This document shows, piece after piece, positions 5,616-13,672 of a DNA stretch of 64,000 nt. The translations under genes were made by a program, and so were the position numbers. Positions within the stretch are counted from its first letter, which is position 1, and every line of letters begins with the position of its first letter. Origin of the DNA: Streptomyces sp. NBC_00433 (lineage in GTDB: Bacteria > Actinomycetota > Actinomycetes > Streptomycetales > Streptomycetaceae); assembly GCA_036015235.1 (NCBI GenBank), contig CP107926.1, forward strand, positions 372,001 to 436,000. Reading direction: 5' to 3'. The notes under the pieces were generated by a model. It worked only from the letters and a program-made list of their open reading frames with translations. It had not been told where the DNA came from and did no database searches.

Positions 5616-5798
5616 CACAACCCCCTACGGTAAGTAGCCCCACCGCGACTCTGCGGCGCCACGCGCCGACGCGGGCCGACGGTGTCCGTGACACCTCATG
5701 TGGCGGGATCCCGTCCCAGCATGTCCGCGCGCCGATTTGTCAGGCAGAATTGTCGCGGGAGACGAGACAAAGCCGGACTAGTGGTCTGGGGGAGGCCA

Positions 5799-8213
5799 GT
5801 GGGACGCCCGGAGAGATCTGTTGACCCCGCCGCAGGGCCGGTGGCCGAATTCGCGGCGCAGTTACGTGACCTGCGGCAGTCGGCCGGCGGGCCGTCGTAC
5901 CGGACGATGGCGCGTGCGGCACACTACTCCGCCGCCACCCTGGCCCGCGCCGCCGGCGGCAGCGCCCTGCCGACCCTGGATGTCGCCCTGGCCTACGTGG
6001 AGGCCTGCGGCGGGGACTCCGCGGCATGGCGCGACCAGTGGCGCAAGGTGTCCACTACACGACACGGGGCCGCCAGGCGGACGCCGGCTCCGTTCCTGAC
6101 ACCGAGGCCGAGGGGTCCGCTCGGCCTTCCCACGCCACGTCAGCTTCCCGCCGGCACGCGGCACTTCACCGGCCGCGAGGAGGAGCTGGAGCGGATCTCC
6201 TCGCAGCTGTCGACGAATCGCGACGAGGACTCAGCCGTGATCACCACCGTGTGCGGCGGCGGCGGGATGGGCAAGACGAGCCTGGTCCTTGAGTGGGCGC
6301 GGCGCCACGCCGCCTCCTTCCCCGACGGCCAGCTCTACGTCAACCTCCGGGGGTTCGATCCCGGCGGACCTCCCGTGGGCCCGGCCACCGCGCTGCAGGG
6401 GTTCTTGCAGGCCCTGGGGATGTCGCAGGAGACGATCCCGCCCGATCCCGACGCCCAGGCGGCCCTCTACCGCAGCCTGGTGGCCGGCCGCCGGATGCTG
6501 GTGGTGCTCGACGACGCGGCCGACACCCGGCAGGTCGCTCCGCTGCTCCCCGGCAGCGGCCTGATCCCCGTCCTCGTCACGAGCAGGCGGCGGCTCGACG
6601 GACTGGCCACGACGCACGGCGCGCGCCGCATCCGGCTCGACGCGCTGCCCTCCGCGGATGCGAGGAAGCTGCTCAGCCATCGCCTCGGATCCCAGCGGGT
6701 GGCCGCGGAGCCCGAGGCCGCCGAGGAGATCCTCGACCGCTGCGGAGGGCTGCCGCTGGCGCTGACGATAGCGGCGGCGCGGTGGGGCGCCCGTGACGGT
6801 TTCCCGTTGGCGGACCTGGCAGCCGAGCTGCGGGACGAGAGTGCGCGGCTGGACGCGCTGGAGGTCGAGGGGTCACTGGTGGGCCTGCGGGCGGCGCTGG
6901 AGTGCTCCTACCGGGCACTCTCCGGGCCGACCGCGACGCTGTTCGCGCTGCTGGGGTCGGTGCCGTATCCGGAGGTCAGCGCGGAGGCGGCCGCCGCCCT
7001 GGCCGGGCAGCCGCTCCAGACGGCCGGCGCTCTGCTCCGGGAGCTCGACGACGCGCATCTGGTGACCCAGCCGGCTCCCGGGCGCTATCGCATGCACGAC
7101 CTGGTGCGCCTGTACGCCGCCGAGCAGGGCCGGGTGTCCCAGGGTCCGTACGTGGTGGCCGCTCGCACCCGCCTGGCCGAGTTCTACCTGCACTCCCTCT
7201 TTCGTGCCGAGCGGCAGCTGTACCCGCAGCGTGCCGCGATCGCGCTGCCCGACCCCGTCGCCGAGGTCGACCCGCTCCTCTTCGCGGGCATCGCGCAGGC
7301 GCTTGCCTGGCTCGACACCGAGTACGCGAACCTCATGACGGTACGCCAGGAAGCCGTCGCGCGAGGCTGCCACGAGGTGGTCTGGAAGATGGCGTGGGCG
7401 CTGATGACGTACCGCATACGCCGCGGCCGGATGCGGGACGACCTGGCCTCCTGGCGCGACGCGCTGGCCGCCCTGCCCCACCTGACCGGCCGGCCCGAGG
7501 CCGAGTACATGGTGCACTGCGGTTTCGGCGGCGCCTGCGTCCGCGTCGGCCGCCACGCCGAGGGGCTTCCACACCTCCTGCGCGCCAAGATGCTGGCCGA
7601 GGCGGCCGGCGACGTCTTCGGCCGGGCCGAAGCGCACTTCCACCTCGCCGTCGCCTGGCACTACGCCGACGACGGCCACCAGTCCCTGGCCCACGCCCTC
7701 CAGGCGCTGGCCCTCTTCAGAACGATGGGCGACCCGGTCTGGATCGCCCTGTCACTCAACGCCGCGGCCCGCTCCGCCACCGGAGTGGGCGCCCACGGGG
7801 AAGCCCGTGCCCACGCGGAGGCCGCCTTCGCCCTGGCGCGCGCCCACGACCAGACCGACGCCGAGGCGGAGGCCTCGGTCAACCTCGGCTACATCGCCCA
7901 GCGGACCGGGGACCCGGCATCCGCCCTGGAGCACTTCGAGCACGCGGTGCGGATCCACCGCAAGCGCCGCAACGTCTACTTCGAAGCCGACGTCCTCGAA
8001 CAACTGGGTTACGCACACGCCCACCTCGGCCGGGCGACCGCGGCCCGCGACGCCTGGCGCCTGGCGGCCGAATCCTACCGGGCCCAGTGGCGCCTGCCCG
8101 AGGCCGAGCGGCTGGACGACCTGCTGTCCGACGAAGGGCGCCTGCAGTCGGGCGCCGTGCCCGCGAGCCCGACACTGTCGGGGATACTGTGCTTCTCGGT
8201 CGTGAGGACGTGA
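5799..8213 (+). CDS. STAND (NB-ARC) regulator with N-terminal helix-turn-helix and C-terminal TPR repeats
   Basis: An 804-residue signal-transduction ATPase. The N-terminus (about 8-85) is an XRE-like helix-turn-helix region typical of Streptomyces proteins starting MGRPERxxDPxxGPVxxFA. It is followed by an NB-ARC ATPase with P-loop GGGGMGKTS (about 153-161), Walker B RRMLVVLDD (about 231-239) and a GLPLAL motif (about 317-322). The C-terminal third is alpha-helical TPR-like (repeats with AEAHFHLAVAWHYADDG and EASVNLGYIAQRTGD). The frame is open to 5682, but GTG 5799 is chosen because it gives the conserved N-terminus and follows GGGGGAGG closely. Family members relate to AfsR but lack the SARP DNA-binding domain. 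Its targets cannot be read from the sequence; the adjacent methyltransferase and the downstream peptide locus are candidates. Confidence 0.9.
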   Translation: MGRPERSVDPAAGPVAEFAAQLRDLRQSAGGPSYRTMARAAHYSAATLARAAGGSALPTLDVALAYVEACGGDSAAWRDQWRKVSTTRHGAARRTPAPFLTPRPRGPLGLPTPRQLPAGTRHFTGREEELERISSQLSTNRDEDSAVITTVCGGGGMGKTSLVLEWARRHAASFPDGQLYVNLRGFDPGGPPVGPATALQGFLQALGMSQETIPPDPDAQAALYRSLVAGRRMLVVLDDAADTRQVAPLLPGSGLIPVLVTSRRRLDGLATTHGARRIRLDALPSADARKLLSHRLGSQRVAAEPEAAEEILDRCGGLPLALTIAAARWGARDGFPLADLAAELRDESARLDALEVEGSLVGLRAALECSYRALSGPTATLFALLGSVPYPEVSAEAAAALAGQPLQTAGALLRELDDAHLVTQPAPGRYRMHDLVRLYAAEQGRVSQGPYVVAARTRLAEFYLHSLFRAERQLYPQRAAIALPDPVAEVDPLLFAGIAQALAWLDTEYANLMTVRQEAVARGCHEVVWKMAWALMTYRIRRGRMRDDLASWRDALAALPHLTGRPEAEYMVHCGFGGACVRVGRHAEGLPHLLRAKMLAEAAGDVFGRAEAHFHLAVAWHYADDGHQSLAHALQALALFRTMGDPVWIALSLNAAARSATGVGAHGEARAHAEAAFALARAHDQTDAEAEASVNLGYIAQRTGDPASALEHFEHAVRIHRKRRNVYFEADVLEQLGYAHAHLGRATAARDAWRLAAESYRAQWRLPEAERLDDLLSDEGRLQSGAVPASPTLSGILCFSVVRT

Positions 8214-8702: not shown

Positions 8703-9080
8703 TTATACCGGTGCGTCTCGCGTGGTGACTCCCGACACGGCCCGCGCGCGTGCCGCGACCACTATCGCGGCGACCCAGCGCTGCTCGCGGAAGGACGACG
8801 GCTGGTCCTCGGCGCGATCCTGCATCGACCGCCACAGATCCGCCCTGGTCCAGGCGATGAAGCGGCGGTGTGCGGTGGCGGGCGAGACATCGAAGCGTGG
8901 CGGCAGCTGCCGCCACGGACACTCCGACATCAGAACGTAGACGACGGCGGTGAACACCTTGCGCCCGTCCACCGGGGCGGTACCTCCGCCCTGGCGGCGG
9001 AACCCGAAAGCCGGGAGGAGCGGCTCGACCAGTTGCCATAAGTCGTCCGTCACCAATCTCTGAGCCAGATCAAATCCCAT
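8703..9080 (-). mobile_element. IS5-family transposase, truncated N-terminal part
   Basis: The 125-residue frame starts MGFDLAQRLVTDDLWQLVEPLLP and contains GGGTAPVDGRKVFTAVVYV, CPWRQLPPRF and ATAHRRFIAWTRADLW. This is the DUF4096/InsA-type N-terminal half of actinobacterial IS5-group transposases. After WVAAIVVAARARAV, which resembles the 'WSRAIVDAASVRA' join, homology stops and the DDE catalytic half is absent. The element is therefore non-autonomous or dead. It forms the left border of the peptide locus that begins at 9491. I could not identify terminal inverted repeats with confidence. Confidence 0.8.
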
Positions 9081-9301: not shown

Positions 9302-9490
9302 CGCTTCTGTGTTCTATGCAAATCTGACGGAGCCGGGGACAGGTTCAAGACACTGTTTCCGGATAGGACGGGTGAGCGAACCACCGAGTGGCCGATGCAT
9401 TCCCTTTTCTTTCCGAGTCACCCGAGAAATCGGGGCGCCTCCGAATTATCGGACGGCGAAGTTGCACCGCCATGAGAGAAGGAGTCCGCC

Positions 9491-9574
9491 ATGAAGAAGA
9501 TCACCGTCCGCAAGGCCGGCACGGTTCGTCTGACCTCGGCTGCCGCCTCGGCCTACTGCTGCGGCGCCAGCTGA
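9491..9574 (+). CDS. candidate RiPP precursor peptide, 27 residues, C-terminal Cys-Cys
   Basis: A short frame directly behind an excellent ribosome site (AGAAGGAG at 9477-9484, 6 bases before ATG). The N-terminal half reads MKKITVRKAGTVRLT, basic and beta-prone like a leader. The C-terminal part reads SAAASAYCCGAS: small residues, then Tyr-Cys-Cys-Gly-Ala-Ser. It is far too short to be an enzyme. It is followed by a strong hairpin and then by a PqqD-like/M50 protease, a TPR protein and a flavin reductase on the same strand. A leader plus a Cys-rich tail beside a PqqD-like (RiPP recognition element) domain suggests a ribosomal peptide that is modified and cleaved. I do not recognise the peptide family. 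It loosely resembles methanobactin precursors in layout (short basic leader, Ala-rich joint, Cys tail), but no MbnB/MbnC gene is present. Coding status is inferred, not proven. Confidence 0.7.
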   Translation: MKKITVRKAGTVRLTSAAASAYCCGAS

Positions 9575-9579
9575 GCCGC

Positions 9580-9619
9580 CGGCCCGGGCCGCCCGCCTCA
9601 CGGCCGGCGGCCCGGGCCG
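9580..9619 (+). terminator. hairpin behind the precursor gene (partial terminator/attenuator)
   Basis: A perfect 14-bp inverted repeat, CGGCCCGGGCCGCC (9580-9593) against GGCGGCCCGGGCCG (9606-9619), with a 12-base loop, begins 5 bases after the peptide stop. No U-tract follows. In RiPP operons such a hairpin commonly reduces read-through or stabilises the upstream message, so that precursor exceeds enzyme. That role is inferred here from position. Confidence 0.7.
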
Positions 9620-9699
9620 TCAACCGTCCGACCCGTCCCGATCCGCACAGCGCGACCGCAGACCCATAGCAGCCCGCGACCCGTAGCAGTGAGGCAGAC

Positions 9700-10932
9700 A
9701 TGGCAACGGTTTCCCCGGACCTCGACCAGCCGGTGCGACTGCACCCTCTGACCTATCTGGAGGAGGGGGACGAGGTCACCGTCGGGCGCGCGGACATCGA
9801 CTCCTACGGGCTCTTCCCGGTCGACGGCGCCGCGCTGCTGCGCCGCCTGGAGGCCGGCGACTCGCCGAACGCCGCCGCCCGCTGGTACACCAGGCAATAC
9901 GGCGAGCAGGTCGATGTCGCCGAATTCCTCGAAGTCCTCGAAGAACTGGAATTACTCGTCAAGGACGGCGAGCAGACGGCGCAGGCGGCAGGACCGGTGC
10001 GCTGGCAGCGCCTGGGACGCGCGCTGTTCTCCCCCGCGGCCTGGGTCGTCTACGGCCTGCTGGTCGCGGCGACCGCGGCCGCCGTGATCCGCACCCCCGA
10101 GCTGCTGCCGCGCTACCACCACCTGTTCTTCACCCATACCTCGCTGGTGGTGCTCACCTTGGGCATCGTGCTCGGCCAGGTGCCCTGGATCCTCGCGCAC
10201 GAGGCCTTCCACGCCCTCGCGGGCCGCCGGCTCGGTCTGCGCTCGACCCTGTCGATCGGCCGGCGCTTCTACTACATCGTCTTCGTGACCGCGCTGGACG
10301 GCCTGGTGGCCGTGCCCCGCCGCAAGCGCTACCTGCCGATGCTGGCCGGCATGCTGCTGGACGTCCTGGTCATCTGCGGCCTGACCCTCGGCGCGGCCGC
10401 ACTGCACGGCGGCACGGGCGCCACCGGGGTCGTCTACCGCCTGCTGCTGTCGATGGCGTTCGCCGTCGTCCTGCGGCTGGCCTGGCAGTTCTACTTCTTC
10501 TTGCGCACCGACCTGTACTACCTGGCCATCACCGTGCTGGGCTGCAACGACCTGCAGACGGTGGCCCGCCAGCAGTTGCGCAACCGCGTCGTGCGGCTGC
10601 TGCGCATGCCCGAGCGGGCGGTCGACGAGTCCGGCTGGACCGACCGCGACCGCGACGTCGCCCGCTGGTACTCCTGGCTACTGGTCGCCGGCTACGTCTT
10701 CCTGACCACGACGCTGCTGACCGCCGTCATCCCGACCGGCGTCAAGGTGACCCGGATGGCCGTGCACAAGCTCGACTCGAACCTGTCCCTGGCGAATGTC
10801 GCCGATGTGATCGTCTTCCTGATCCTCAACTTCGGCGAGCTGTTCCTCGCCGGCTACCTGGCCGCCCGCAGCTGGCGGCGCAGGACCAGGACGGCGGCCC
10901 CCGCCTCGCCGCCGGCGCAGACCGCGGCCTGA
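9700..10932 (+). CDS. PqqD-like domain fused to M50-type membrane zinc metalloprotease
   Basis: A 410-residue protein. Residues about 10-90 (VRLHPLTYLEEGDEVTVGR ... DVAEFLEVLEELELL) have the winged-helix pattern of PqqD/RiPP recognition domains that hold leader peptides. Residues about 110-390 are polytopic membrane protein with the zinc motif HEAFH (167-171) inside a hydrophobic helix and a candidate third ligand Asp at about 221 (GMLLDVLV), as in site-2-type and YydH-like peptide proteases. It probably binds the 9491 peptide and cleaves or exports it at the membrane. It starts 126 bases after the peptide gene, behind a GTGAGGCAG ribosome site, and precedes the TPR gene by about 100 bases. 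Domain assignment is firm for the metalloprotease and good for the PqqD-like part; substrate identity is inferred. Confidence 0.85.
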   Translation: MATVSPDLDQPVRLHPLTYLEEGDEVTVGRADIDSYGLFPVDGAALLRRLEAGDSPNAAARWYTRQYGEQVDVAEFLEVLEELELLVKDGEQTAQAAGPVRWQRLGRALFSPAAWVVYGLLVAATAAAVIRTPELLPRYHHLFFTHTSLVVLTLGIVLGQVPWILAHEAFHALAGRRLGLRSTLSIGRRFYYIVFVTALDGLVAVPRRKRYLPMLAGMLLDVLVICGLTLGAAALHGGTGATGVVYRLLLSMAFAVVLRLAWQFYFFLRTDLYYLAITVLGCNDLQTVARQQLRNRVVRLLRMPERAVDESGWTDRDRDVARWYSWLLVAGYVFLTTTLLTAVIPTGVKVTRMAVHKLDSNLSLANVADVIVFLILNFGELFLAGYLAARSWRRRTRTAAPASPPAQTAA

Positions 10933-11039
10933 CCGGCCCGGTCCGCGGGGGCGCCGCGCGCGCTCCGGCACCACGCAACCCACGACCGACGGCACCGGCC
11001 CGCTCGCACGCGCGCCGGCCCGTGGAAGGAGACCGCCGT

Positions 11040-13133
11040 ATGGACCAGGCAGAGTTCCGCCACCACTGGGTGCACGGAGGCTCACGACGGGGCCGGGCCG
11101 ACGCCGTACGCTCGCTCGCCGCTCCGCCCGCGCTGCTGCCGTCCGGCCTGCCCGTCGACGCGCACCGCCGGCTGCGCGGCCCGTACACCGCGGCCAACAC
11201 GGTGGCGCGGGCGCTGGTGCCTGAGGTGCTGCGGCGCGACGCGGCCCCGGTACGCCGCTACGACATCGAAGTGCTGTCCGTGGCGCCGGAGCTGAGCGAT
11301 CAGGTGCCCAACTCGCGCGAGACGCTGACGTCGATGGCGCTGCCCGCCGAGCGCACCCGCTACTACGCGCGGCTGCGGACCAAGCGGATCGCCAACGGGC
11401 TCGCCGAGTTCGTCCGTGACGCGCTGCCCTCCGGTGGCCCGCGCACCTTGGTGGTGGAGAACGCCGAGCACGCCGAGGCCACGGACGTCGAGTTCATCGC
11501 CGCCCTGGTGCGGCGGGTGGACCCGGCCCGCCTCACCGTCGTGGTCTGCTCCGGCGGCGACGCGGGGGCGCTGGACGAGCGGCTGCGGTCGGTGCTCGAC
11601 GCCCGCGCTCTGGAAACCACCGTGACGGCCGGGCCGCCCGCGCAACCGGGCGGGGACGCCTGGTCCTATGTGAGCGGCGAGTGCCTGGCCGAGGAGCCCG
11701 CCACGCATGCCGCTTACGAGGCACTGGACGCCGCGGAAAGGGCCGCGCTGCACGACCGCAGGGCCGCGGAGATCCTGGCGGTGGGCGACTTCTCCCACGG
11801 CCTCGGCGCCGTCCCCTACCACCTGGAGCGCGGCACCGATCCGGTCGGCGCCGCCCTGCCTGTGCTTCTCGCCGCCGCCGACCATTGCCTGGTGAACGGC
11901 TTCTACGACGCGGTCGTCGACTACGGCACCCGGGCTTTCGCACTGCTCGACGGCACCGGGAACGACACCCTGTGGTGGAAGTTCGCCGTCAAACAGGGTC
12001 TGGCCCTCTCGATATTGTCCAGGACCCGCGAAGCCGAGGAAATCTACGACCGCGCAAGACTTCTGTCCACAGACCCCGCCGTGCATATGGCGTGCTCTTA
12101 TTCCACGGCAATGCTCTACACCCGGCATAATGACCCCGCCGACCGTGACGAGAAGAAGGCGAAAGCCCTGCTGAACGGCGCGGTCGCCACCGCCTCGCTG
12201 CTGCCCGACAGGGTCGAACGCGCCTTCCAGAGCGCGTTTTACAAAAACGGCCGCGCGCTGGTCGAGGTCAATCTCGGCGACCCTGCGGAAGCGCTCAGGC
12301 TCGTCACCGAGTGCATCGACGACCTCGACAGGCAACTGGCACCCGACGAGCACCGCCTGCACCGCTCTGTGCTCAAGAACAACCGCGCCCGCGTCTATGT
12401 CGGCCTCGGCCGTCTGAACGAGGCGTTGGACGACTACGCCGTCGTCATCGAGCAGGACCCCAACCACGCCGAGCACTACCTCGAACGCGGCAACATCCTG
12501 CGGCGGCTGGGCCGCACCGAGGAGGCCCTCGCCGACTACGCGCGCGCGATGCGGCTCTCCCCGCCCTTCCCCGAGATCTGCTACAACCGCGGCGACCTGC
12601 GGCTGTCGGAGGGCGACACCGCCGGCGCGCTCGCCGACTTCGACTACGTCATCGACCTGGAGCCGGACTTCGTCGACGCCTACGTCAACCGTGCCGGGCT
12701 CTACCTGGACGAGGAGCGGCTCGACGCCGCCCGGCAGGACGCCGAGACCGGGCTCCTGCTCGACGCCGACAACGCCTACCTACACGTGGTGGTGGGCCAG
12801 GTGCACGCGGAGAACGAGGACTTCGCCGCCGCCGAGGAGGCGTACGACCGGGCCGTCGCGGCCGACCCGACCCTGGTCACCGCGCTGTCCGGGCGGGCCG
12901 CGGTCCGCTTCGAGAACGGCAGGGCCGACGCCGCCGTCGAGGACATGGACCGCGCGGTGGACCTGGCCCCCCAGGACCCGGCGCTGCGCTACAACCGGGC
13001 CTTCCTCCACCAGGCCCGCGAGGATTGGCACAGCGCACTGGCCGACCTCGTCGTCGCGGACGCCCTGGCCCCCGACGACGAGGACATCGCCGCCGCCCTC
13101 AAGACCTGTCGCGTGAAGACGGGCCAGGCGTGA
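11040..13133 (+). CDS. TPR-repeat protein with vestigial ATPase-like N-terminus
   Basis: A 697-residue cytoplasmic protein. The N-terminal 220 residues are laid out like a STAND/AAA module. RGPYTAANTVARALVPEVLRR stands where a P-loop would be but lacks the GxGxGK(T/S) signature, while a Walker-B-like strand RTLVVENAEHAE and a following VVVCSGG strand remain. From about residue 320 to the end it is TPR, with eight or more repeats such as EALDDYAVVIEQDPNHAEHY and EALADYARAMRLSPPFPE. TPR arrays bind peptides or partner proteins. In this operon it may act as scaffold, sensor or chaperone for the peptide. ATG 11040 is chosen over an in-frame GTG at 11022 because GGAAGGAG (11024-11031) lies 8 bases before it. 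The stop overlaps the flavin reductase start. Confidence 0.85.
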   Translation: MDQAEFRHHWVHGGSRRGRADAVRSLAAPPALLPSGLPVDAHRRLRGPYTAANTVARALVPEVLRRDAAPVRRYDIEVLSVAPELSDQVPNSRETLTSMALPAERTRYYARLRTKRIANGLAEFVRDALPSGGPRTLVVENAEHAEATDVEFIAALVRRVDPARLTVVVCSGGDAGALDERLRSVLDARALETTVTAGPPAQPGGDAWSYVSGECLAEEPATHAAYEALDAAERAALHDRRAAEILAVGDFSHGLGAVPYHLERGTDPVGAALPVLLAAADHCLVNGFYDAVVDYGTRAFALLDGTGNDTLWWKFAVKQGLALSILSRTREAEEIYDRARLLSTDPAVHMACSYSTAMLYTRHNDPADRDEKKAKALLNGAVATASLLPDRVERAFQSAFYKNGRALVEVNLGDPAEALRLVTECIDDLDRQLAPDEHRLHRSVLKNNRARVYVGLGRLNEALDDYAVVIEQDPNHAEHYLERGNILRRLGRTEEALADYARAMRLSPPFPEICYNRGDLRLSEGDTAGALADFDYVIDLEPDFVDAYVNRAGLYLDEERLDAARQDAETGLLLDADNAYLHVVVGQVHAENEDFAAAEEAYDRAVAADPTLVTALSGRAAVRFENGRADAAVEDMDRAVDLAPQDPALRYNRAFLHQAREDWHSALADLVVADALAPDDEDIAAALKTCRVKTGQA

Positions 13134-13672
13134 CCACCGCCGAGCCGGCCGTGCACGGGGCGGCCGGCCCGGCTGGACGGCCGCTGCACGCGCCGGCCGG
13201 GCAGCGGGCGCTGCGCGACGTACTGGGCCGCTACGCCACCGGTGTCGCGGTGGTCACCACCCGGCACCACGGGCGGCCCGCCGGCGTCACCGTCAACTCC
13301 TTCACCTCGGTGTCCCTCGACCCGCCGCTCGTCCTGTGGTGCCTGAGTTCCTCCTCCGGCAGCCGGTCCGCCTTCACCCGCACCGAGCACTTCGCGGTGA
13401 ACGTGCTCGGCGCGGACCAGCGCGACCTGTGCACCCGTTTCAGCCGCCCCGGCGACCGCTTCGCCGGGCTGCCGGTGCACACCGGACCGCACGGCCTGCC
13501 GCTGCTGCCCGGCGCGATCGCCGTCCTGCTGTGCCGCCGCGTCGATCTGCTGCGGGCCGGCGACCACCTGCTGCTGCTCGGCACCGTGACGGACCACAGC
13601 ATGTCCCCCGGTCCTGCGCTGCTGTTCGCCGACGGCGGCTACCACGCCGGACCGGGCCGCACCGGACCCTAG
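13130..13672 (+). CDS. flavin reductase family protein (FMN-binding split barrel)
   Basis: A 180-residue protein of the two-component monooxygenase reductase family. It contains LRDVLGRYATGVAVVTT, then GVTVNSFTSVSLDPPLVLWCL, SAFTRTEHFAVNVL and a C-terminal HLLLLGTV block with LLFADGGYH, all standard positions for FMN and NAD(P)H binding. Such proteins supply reduced flavin to an oxygenase or halogenase, or act as flavoenzymes themselves. GTG at 13130 overlaps the TPR stop (GTGA), so the two are translationally coupled and belong to one operon. No flavin-dependent partner is encoded nearby. An IS30-like remnant begins within 3 bases of the stop codon, so downstream operon genes may have been lost. 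Confidence 0.9.
   Translation: MTTAEPAVHGAAGPAGRPLHAPAGQRALRDVLGRYATGVAVVTTRHHGRPAGVTVNSFTSVSLDPPLVLWCLSSSSGSRSAFTRTEHFAVNVLGADQRDLCTRFSRPGDRFAGLPVHTGPHGLPLLPGAIAVLLCRRVDLLRAGDHLLLLGTVTDHSMSPGPALLFADGGYHAGPGRTGP

Follow-up and report, generated by a model that had tools for sequence, protein, structure and literature searches.

Daptide clusters are marked by an RRE fused to the intramembrane site-2 protease MpaP, which acts as the leader peptidase, and their precursors carry an ELExMEAP leader and a C-terminal Thr (PMC10036551). Membrane proteases of the M50 type also serve the epipeptides (EpeX/EpeE/EpeP) and the pearlins (TglG, TmoG) (PMC10885120). Here we describe an operon of Streptomyces sp. 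NBC_00433 in which an RRE/site-2-protease fusion is combined with a short peptide and a TPR protein. The operon lies in a stretch of 64,000 nucleotides (the window), positions 372001–436000 of an 8.99-Mb single-contig genome, and among named organisms Actinacidiphila bryophytorum and A. cocklensis come closest to the strain at this locus. We consider it likely that the operon directs the biosynthesis of RiPPs from a family that has so far gone undescribed and is related to daptides in its peptidase.

The operon comprises, in this order, the precursor gene of 27 codons, a hairpin, the RRE/site-2-protease fusion, the TPR protein and a flavin reductase (Table 1). A preliminary description of this DNA, made from the letters alone, had reported a peptide gene with a strong ribosome site and three co-directional genes behind it, the final pair overlapping by GTGA, and this account is accurate. 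Two further genes lie upstream. A DUF4096 (IS4/5-type) transposase fragment is located just before the operon (window 8703–9080, minus strand), and upstream ORFs at two of the other loci analysed (L035, L036) are of the same family. An HTH-NB-ARC-TPR regulator (window 5682–8213, plus strand) is related to SARP-NB-ARC regulators that occur near loci bearing an old-yellow-enzyme FMN oxidoreductase (OYE). Elsewhere in the same genome (L177:1936–2121, plus strand), a 61-residue peptide ending in ...GSSTSCSSTSTCSSTTSTTSCTA resembles a thiopeptide precursor.

Table 1. Features of the operon, in window positions
Feature	Position	Strand	Basis or remark
Ribosome-binding site of precursor gene, AAGGAG	9479–9484	+	sequence
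Precursor peptide gene, ATG at 9491, 27 aa	9491–9574 (stop included)	+	sequence; homologue in 47/47 group-1 loci
Hairpin directly behind precursor gene	9580–9619	+	folding energy; no T-run
RRE/site-2-protease (M50) fusion, 410 aa, predicted multi-pass membrane protein	9700–10932	+	
RRE (PqqD-like) domain, residues 18–82 of fusion protein	9751–9945	+	AlphaFold bbb-aaa; VIA-align
HEAFH zinc-protease motif, residues 167–171	10198–10212	+	H167, E168, H171 invariant
TPR protein, 697 aa: conserved N-terminal domain of ~250 aa plus TPR solenoid	11040–13133	+	
Flavin reductase-like protein PF01613, 180 aa, accessory	13130–13672	+	Pfam; overlaps TPR gene by GTGA

The arrangement is real and exceeds chance, because a homologous peptide sits at the same place in 46 other loci. 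One of them is a second copy in the same genome, where the peptide MKKIKIRKAGSVRLTTSASLYGGPPCDLA, which has a different core, stands together with a protease 53% identical to that of the window and a TPR protein. When 84,980 species genomes were scanned, close relatives of the protease turned up at 16 loci, each with the peptide 160–335 bases upstream, and searches of class and order genomes supplied further ones, so that 47 loci are known in total: the window, its paralogue and 45 others. Peptide, RRE-protease and TPR protein occur together in all 47 loci with a protease identity of at least about 38%, and these loci (group 1) form a single clade (support 98/99), apart from more distant proteases. 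The preliminary description had proposed to look for co-occurrence of the peptide with homologues of the two large proteins, and had held that homologous loci without a similar peptide would speak against its reading; a similar peptide was always present beside both. A DNA pattern of the leader gave 22 matches in 395 class genomes. Twenty of them adjoin a TPR homologue, none was found alongside the remaining two, and the reversed pattern, used as a control, had zero matches among the genomes listed. The distribution is patchy: of 392 order genomes, 25 were positive at a strict threshold that also admitted the distant group-3 relatives discussed below, and an even but thin draw of 396 phylum genomes yielded no further strong match outside the class. 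In public plasmid records, related proteases are mostly labelled 'hypothetical protein'.

The peptide encoded in the window, MKKITVRKAGTVRLTSAAASAYCCGAS, belongs to no Pfam or NCBIfam family and can be divided, at a putative boundary, into the leader MKKITVRKAGTVRLT and the core region SAAASAYCCGAS. The 47 loci encode 39 distinct peptides with the leader consensus MKKIxVRKAGxVRLT. Mean pairwise identity among them is 69% for the last 13 leader residues and 37% for the region after 'LT', and codon differences, counted within groups of similar length, are distributed correspondingly (leader, 123 synonymous versus 32 nonsynonymous; core, 95 versus 108). The 39 peptides thus have what is expected of RiPP precursors, a conserved leader followed by a variable core. 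The window peptide ends in YCCGAS, and its tail had been proposed as the core, with Cys-Cys as its hallmark. The division held, with a conserved leader and a varying tail, but the Cys-Cys pair itself is not kept: it is not general among the 39 peptides and was rejected as a conserved core feature. The conserved feature is instead that no core lacks either Tyr or Cys. The Tyr usually occupies position 6 or 7 after LT, and the spacing between it and the Cys varies. When the cores are grouped into 20 types (60% identity), background composition alone would give this pattern with a probability near 10^-30 in a simple independence model, which takes no account of shared descent. One core is rich in Cys (AMACYCYGCCCCGGRAAI), and many contain a single one. 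Tyr plus Cys as a rule without exception was likewise rejected, since a more divergent plasmid locus (L175) combines RRE-protease and TPR protein with MRKISVRRTEPIKVTSAPFSHQPAIVPV, which has neither residue. L175 belongs to a linear plasmid of Streptomyces sp. NBC_01450, where the RRE-M50 and TPR genes lie among IS elements and the peptide ends in ...IKVTSAPFSHQPAIVPV.

The hairpin noted earlier right behind the peptide gene is present and has a folding energy of -43.5 kcal/mol (z = -4.4 against dinucleotide shuffles). Across group 1, the 60 bases 3' of the peptide stop reach z < -1.5 in 43 of 47 loci (median -4.1), and the hairpin sequences differ between lineages though the folding is kept. 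The window hairpin was absent from the intrinsic-terminator list of a terminator scan, and it is no textbook intrinsic terminator because no T-run follows it. Probably, it acts as an attenuator or mRNA stabiliser.

The fusion protein of the window matched neither Pfam nor NCBIfam. Its relatives gave weak matches to PqqD (best E 0.00077) and Peptidase_M50 (E 0.016), and the only PDB sequence match of the protease profile was the lasso RRE TbiB1 (E 0.91). The AlphaFold model (mean pLDDT 76) contains the bbb-aaa fold of an RRE, which VIA-align superimposed on leader-bound TbiB1 with Z 10.0 and on PqqD with Z 8.0. The membrane part aligned with SpoIVFB (Z 7.3) and the archaeal site-2 protease mjS2P (Z 6.6), values that are moderate for helical proteins. 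Hydropathy indicates several membrane segments, and alignments of homologues show the HExxH motif and D271 to be invariant. According to the model, the protein therefore has the leader-recognition domain of RiPP pathways, with leader binding predicted, joined to the fold of a membrane HExxH zinc protease, and we regard it as a putative M50/site-2 protease. The PqqD-M50 fusion of the preliminary description is thereby borne out, as an RRE fold with an S2P-like membrane domain.

TPR and Flavin_Reduct are solid Pfam matches. The model of the TPR protein (mean pLDDT 88) matches TPR solenoids, and TPR and similar helical-repeat proteins were the only ones among the Foldseek matches listed. For the N-terminal part, no relative was found. 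A Walker-B-like stretch had suggested a degenerate STAND NTPase; this was rejected, as the profile comparison with STAND regulators aligned the TPR repeats only. A defence-system reading was dropped as well, because the match given by PADLOC was weak and confined to the TPR repeats.

The position behind the TPR gene is variable. A flavin reductase occupies it in 18 of the 47 loci, an OYE in five, all with one core type (...ACSIYK...), and a short-chain dehydrogenase (SDR) in one, while at two loci, L133 and L134, a gene overlapping the TPR gene encodes a radical-SAM C-methyltransferase of RiPP pathways, TIGR03975 (scores of 605 and 619 bits against a cut-off of 282). In the other 21 loci, three of which break off at a contig end, no such enzyme was recognised; gene calls were heuristic, and this count is no proof of absence. 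The proposed four-gene set is accordingly constant in peptide, protease and TPR protein, but other enzymes can take the place of its flavin reductase. A flavin reductase acting on its own is not known as an established tailoring enzyme of RiPPs, which speaks against the RiPP reading. The RiPP reading advanced in the preliminary description is supported by the RiPP maturase found directly after the TPR gene at the two sister loci. A further TIGR03975 enzyme is encoded elsewhere in the Streptomyces sp. NBC_00433 genome (L176:5980–8130, plus strand; 605 bits), and its start resembles those of the L133 and L134 enzymes.

The window locus shares with daptides an N-terminal RRE joined to a site-2 protease, short precursors and the occurrence in Actinomycetota; leader removal, performed there by MpaP, is predicted here. 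That the protease is MpaP itself and the locus a reduced daptide cluster is extremely improbable, even though the daptide model NF041824 (daptide_HExxH) is the NCBIfam model matched by most members (4 of 17). These matches stay far under the cut-off (E 0.03 at best), the window locus is absent from the whole-genome matches, and neither NF041824 nor NF041823, the RRE-bearing partner protein of daptides, exceeds its cut-off anywhere in the genome. Moreover, the leader is MKKIxVRKAGxVRLT rather than ELExMEAP, there is one precursor instead of several, and the 39 distinct peptides have Tyr and Cys in the core and include none that ends in Thr. A TPR protein is the partner, and the aminotransferase, alcohol dehydrogenase and methyltransferase of daptide modification were not recognised in the operon. 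On this evidence, the window locus is therefore not a daptide, although its protease may, by analogy, work like the daptide peptidase. The earlier statement that the locus fits no nameable class has to be qualified by the MpaP precedent for the RRE/site-2-protease fusion, which gives the machinery a known relative. With epipeptides and pearlins, the operon has in common an M50 membrane protease for a RiPP precursor (cleavage being predicted here); it differs in its precursor, in the fusion of the RRE to the protease and in having no recognised radical SAM or PEARL enzyme. The FxSxx-COOH system (FxsA/FxsB/FxsT) pairs a short actinobacterial peptide with a TPR protein and the radical SAM enzyme FxsB. 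The same pairing of peptide and TPR protein is found in the window, but none of the 39 peptides has an FxSxx C-terminus, no FxsB was recognised in the operon, and the FxSxx TPR model was not among the 25 best of 28 NCBIfam matches. A link to the TIGR03975 RiPPs of proteusin-type clusters is given by L133 and L134; the window operon itself lacks this enzyme, and its leader of about 15 residues is not nitrile-hydratase-like. Keyword searches of open-access papers returned daptides, epipeptides and pearlins as precedents and no description of this operon. Leader strings likewise had no match in open-access papers, which is weak evidence of absence, as supplements and closed journals lay outside the search, and the decRiPPter main text does not mention TPR, PqqD or ThiF. 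Surveys in the style of RRE-Finder may hold related proteins without comment.

Two more distant groups of loci contain parts of the system. In group 2 (L138–L152, 15 loci), a TPR homologue of 41–47% identity is accompanied in 12 loci by a 24-residue peptide, and no RRE-protease was found. This peptide (for example at L140:9343–9417, minus strand) is nearly invariant, MKKIIVRKPGTTRLSGASSVIHKG with variants ending in SPRHLT and SPKHVG. As sampled, group 2 is confined to one family of the class and appears as a simpler relative of the same system. Group 3 (L058–L070 and L135–L137, 16 loci) has RRE-M50 homologues of about 30% identity and no TPR protein that could be found. Thirteen of its loci have a gene from one family either adjoining the protease or close by, and the two members scanned (L063, L135) are ThiF/E1-like; group 3 is possibly a second RiPP group. 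At L060 (9674–9751, minus strand) and L067 (10117–10194, minus strand), the peptides MKKLVVRKLEPIKTSANADCVPAAA and MKKLIVRRLESVKTSAATSCSVVVA directly precede the group-3 proteases, with no gene of the ThiF-like family. Their leaders resemble that of the window peptide.

The protease-less loci of group 2 bear on the question of whether the peptide is a signal rather than a product, namely a pheromone that is cut by the site-2 protease, sensed by the TPR protein in the RRNPP manner and modified little or not at all. Eep, which processes enterococcal pheromones, is a precedent, no other partner accompanies the leader as constantly as the TPR protein, and group 2 retains TPR protein and near-invariant peptide (...SVIHKG) where the protease is missing. 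Moreover, a tailoring enzyme next to the TPR gene was recognised in only about half of the group-1 loci, which points in the same direction. Nevertheless, we regard this explanation as unlikely. RRNPP receptors join a DNA-binding domain to the TPR repeats, and Pfam recognised no HTH or other DNA-binding family in the TPR protein of the window. An RRE domain and radical-SAM, OYE and flavin-reductase partners are traits of RiPPs and not of pheromones, and a pheromone matched to its receptor would not be expected to diverge in its core while keeping Tyr and Cys. The same two residues, the Cys-rich core and the redox enzyme partners could instead fit a metal- or redox-active thiol/phenol ligand that acts inside the cell and is no secreted natural product. 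Strong core divergence, the patchy distribution and the many single-Cys cores all argue against it, and we judge it very improbable.

The RiPP reading is favoured because peptide, RRE-protease and TPR protein co-occur at all 47 loci of one supported clade, because the leader is conserved and the core variable, with codon substitution counts to match, and because the paralogue in the same genome has a different core. It is further favoured because the RRE fold matches PqqD and leader-bound lasso RREs and is joined to an S2P-like domain with invariant HExxH, because the hairpin persists despite differing sequence and SARP-type (BTAD) regulators adjoin several loci, because the slot after the TPR gene holds a flavin reductase, OYE, SDR or TIGR03975 enzyme, and because the proteases of daptides, epipeptides and pearlins set precedents. 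Two observations count against it: about half of the loci have no recognised tailoring enzyme next to the TPR gene, and the surroundings of the window operon showed no exporter. In addition, the TPR protein may serve another purpose, for example sensing, since it is also found with a near-invariant peptide and no protease.

For a RiPP pathway, we propose the following sequence of events, the order of which is itself tentative. The 27-residue precursor would be translated from its strong ribosome site, with the hairpin probably holding its output above that of the downstream genes. The predicted RRE of the membrane protease would then capture the leader, probably in the form of a beta strand, and the TPR protein would presumably bind and present the peptide or scaffold the enzymes. 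The core with its Tyr and Cys would be the target of whichever accessory redox enzyme the lineage has, in the window the flavin reductase; we infer that the core is modified and not just cleaved. Finally, the protease would cut behind the leader, around the S/T-A-A stretch, and free the core at the membrane, much as MpaP does with daptides or as has been proposed for EpeP with epipeptides. A more specific and rather doubtful idea is that the loci represent a new RiPP class, with the obligatory Tyr and Cys as the substrate of a shared but so far unrecognised chemistry, such as a Cys-Tyr cross-link of variable ring size, performed or organised by TPR protein and RRE-protease, with flavin reductase, OYE, SDR and radical-SAM enzymes being secondary.

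With 47 loci and 39 distinct precursors, the likely RiPP family is well bounded, had no published description that we found and occurs in a bacterial group prized for its antibiotics. The protease-less relatives that combine a TPR protein with a constant peptide raise the question of the role of the TPR protein. Because the peptides are at about the minimum length that gene callers accept, or shorter, and the proteases are mostly labelled hypothetical, the family may be missed when genomes are mined with known modification enzymes as the starting point. The Tyr-plus-Cys rule, in turn, points to the residues worth inspecting in the mass spectrum.
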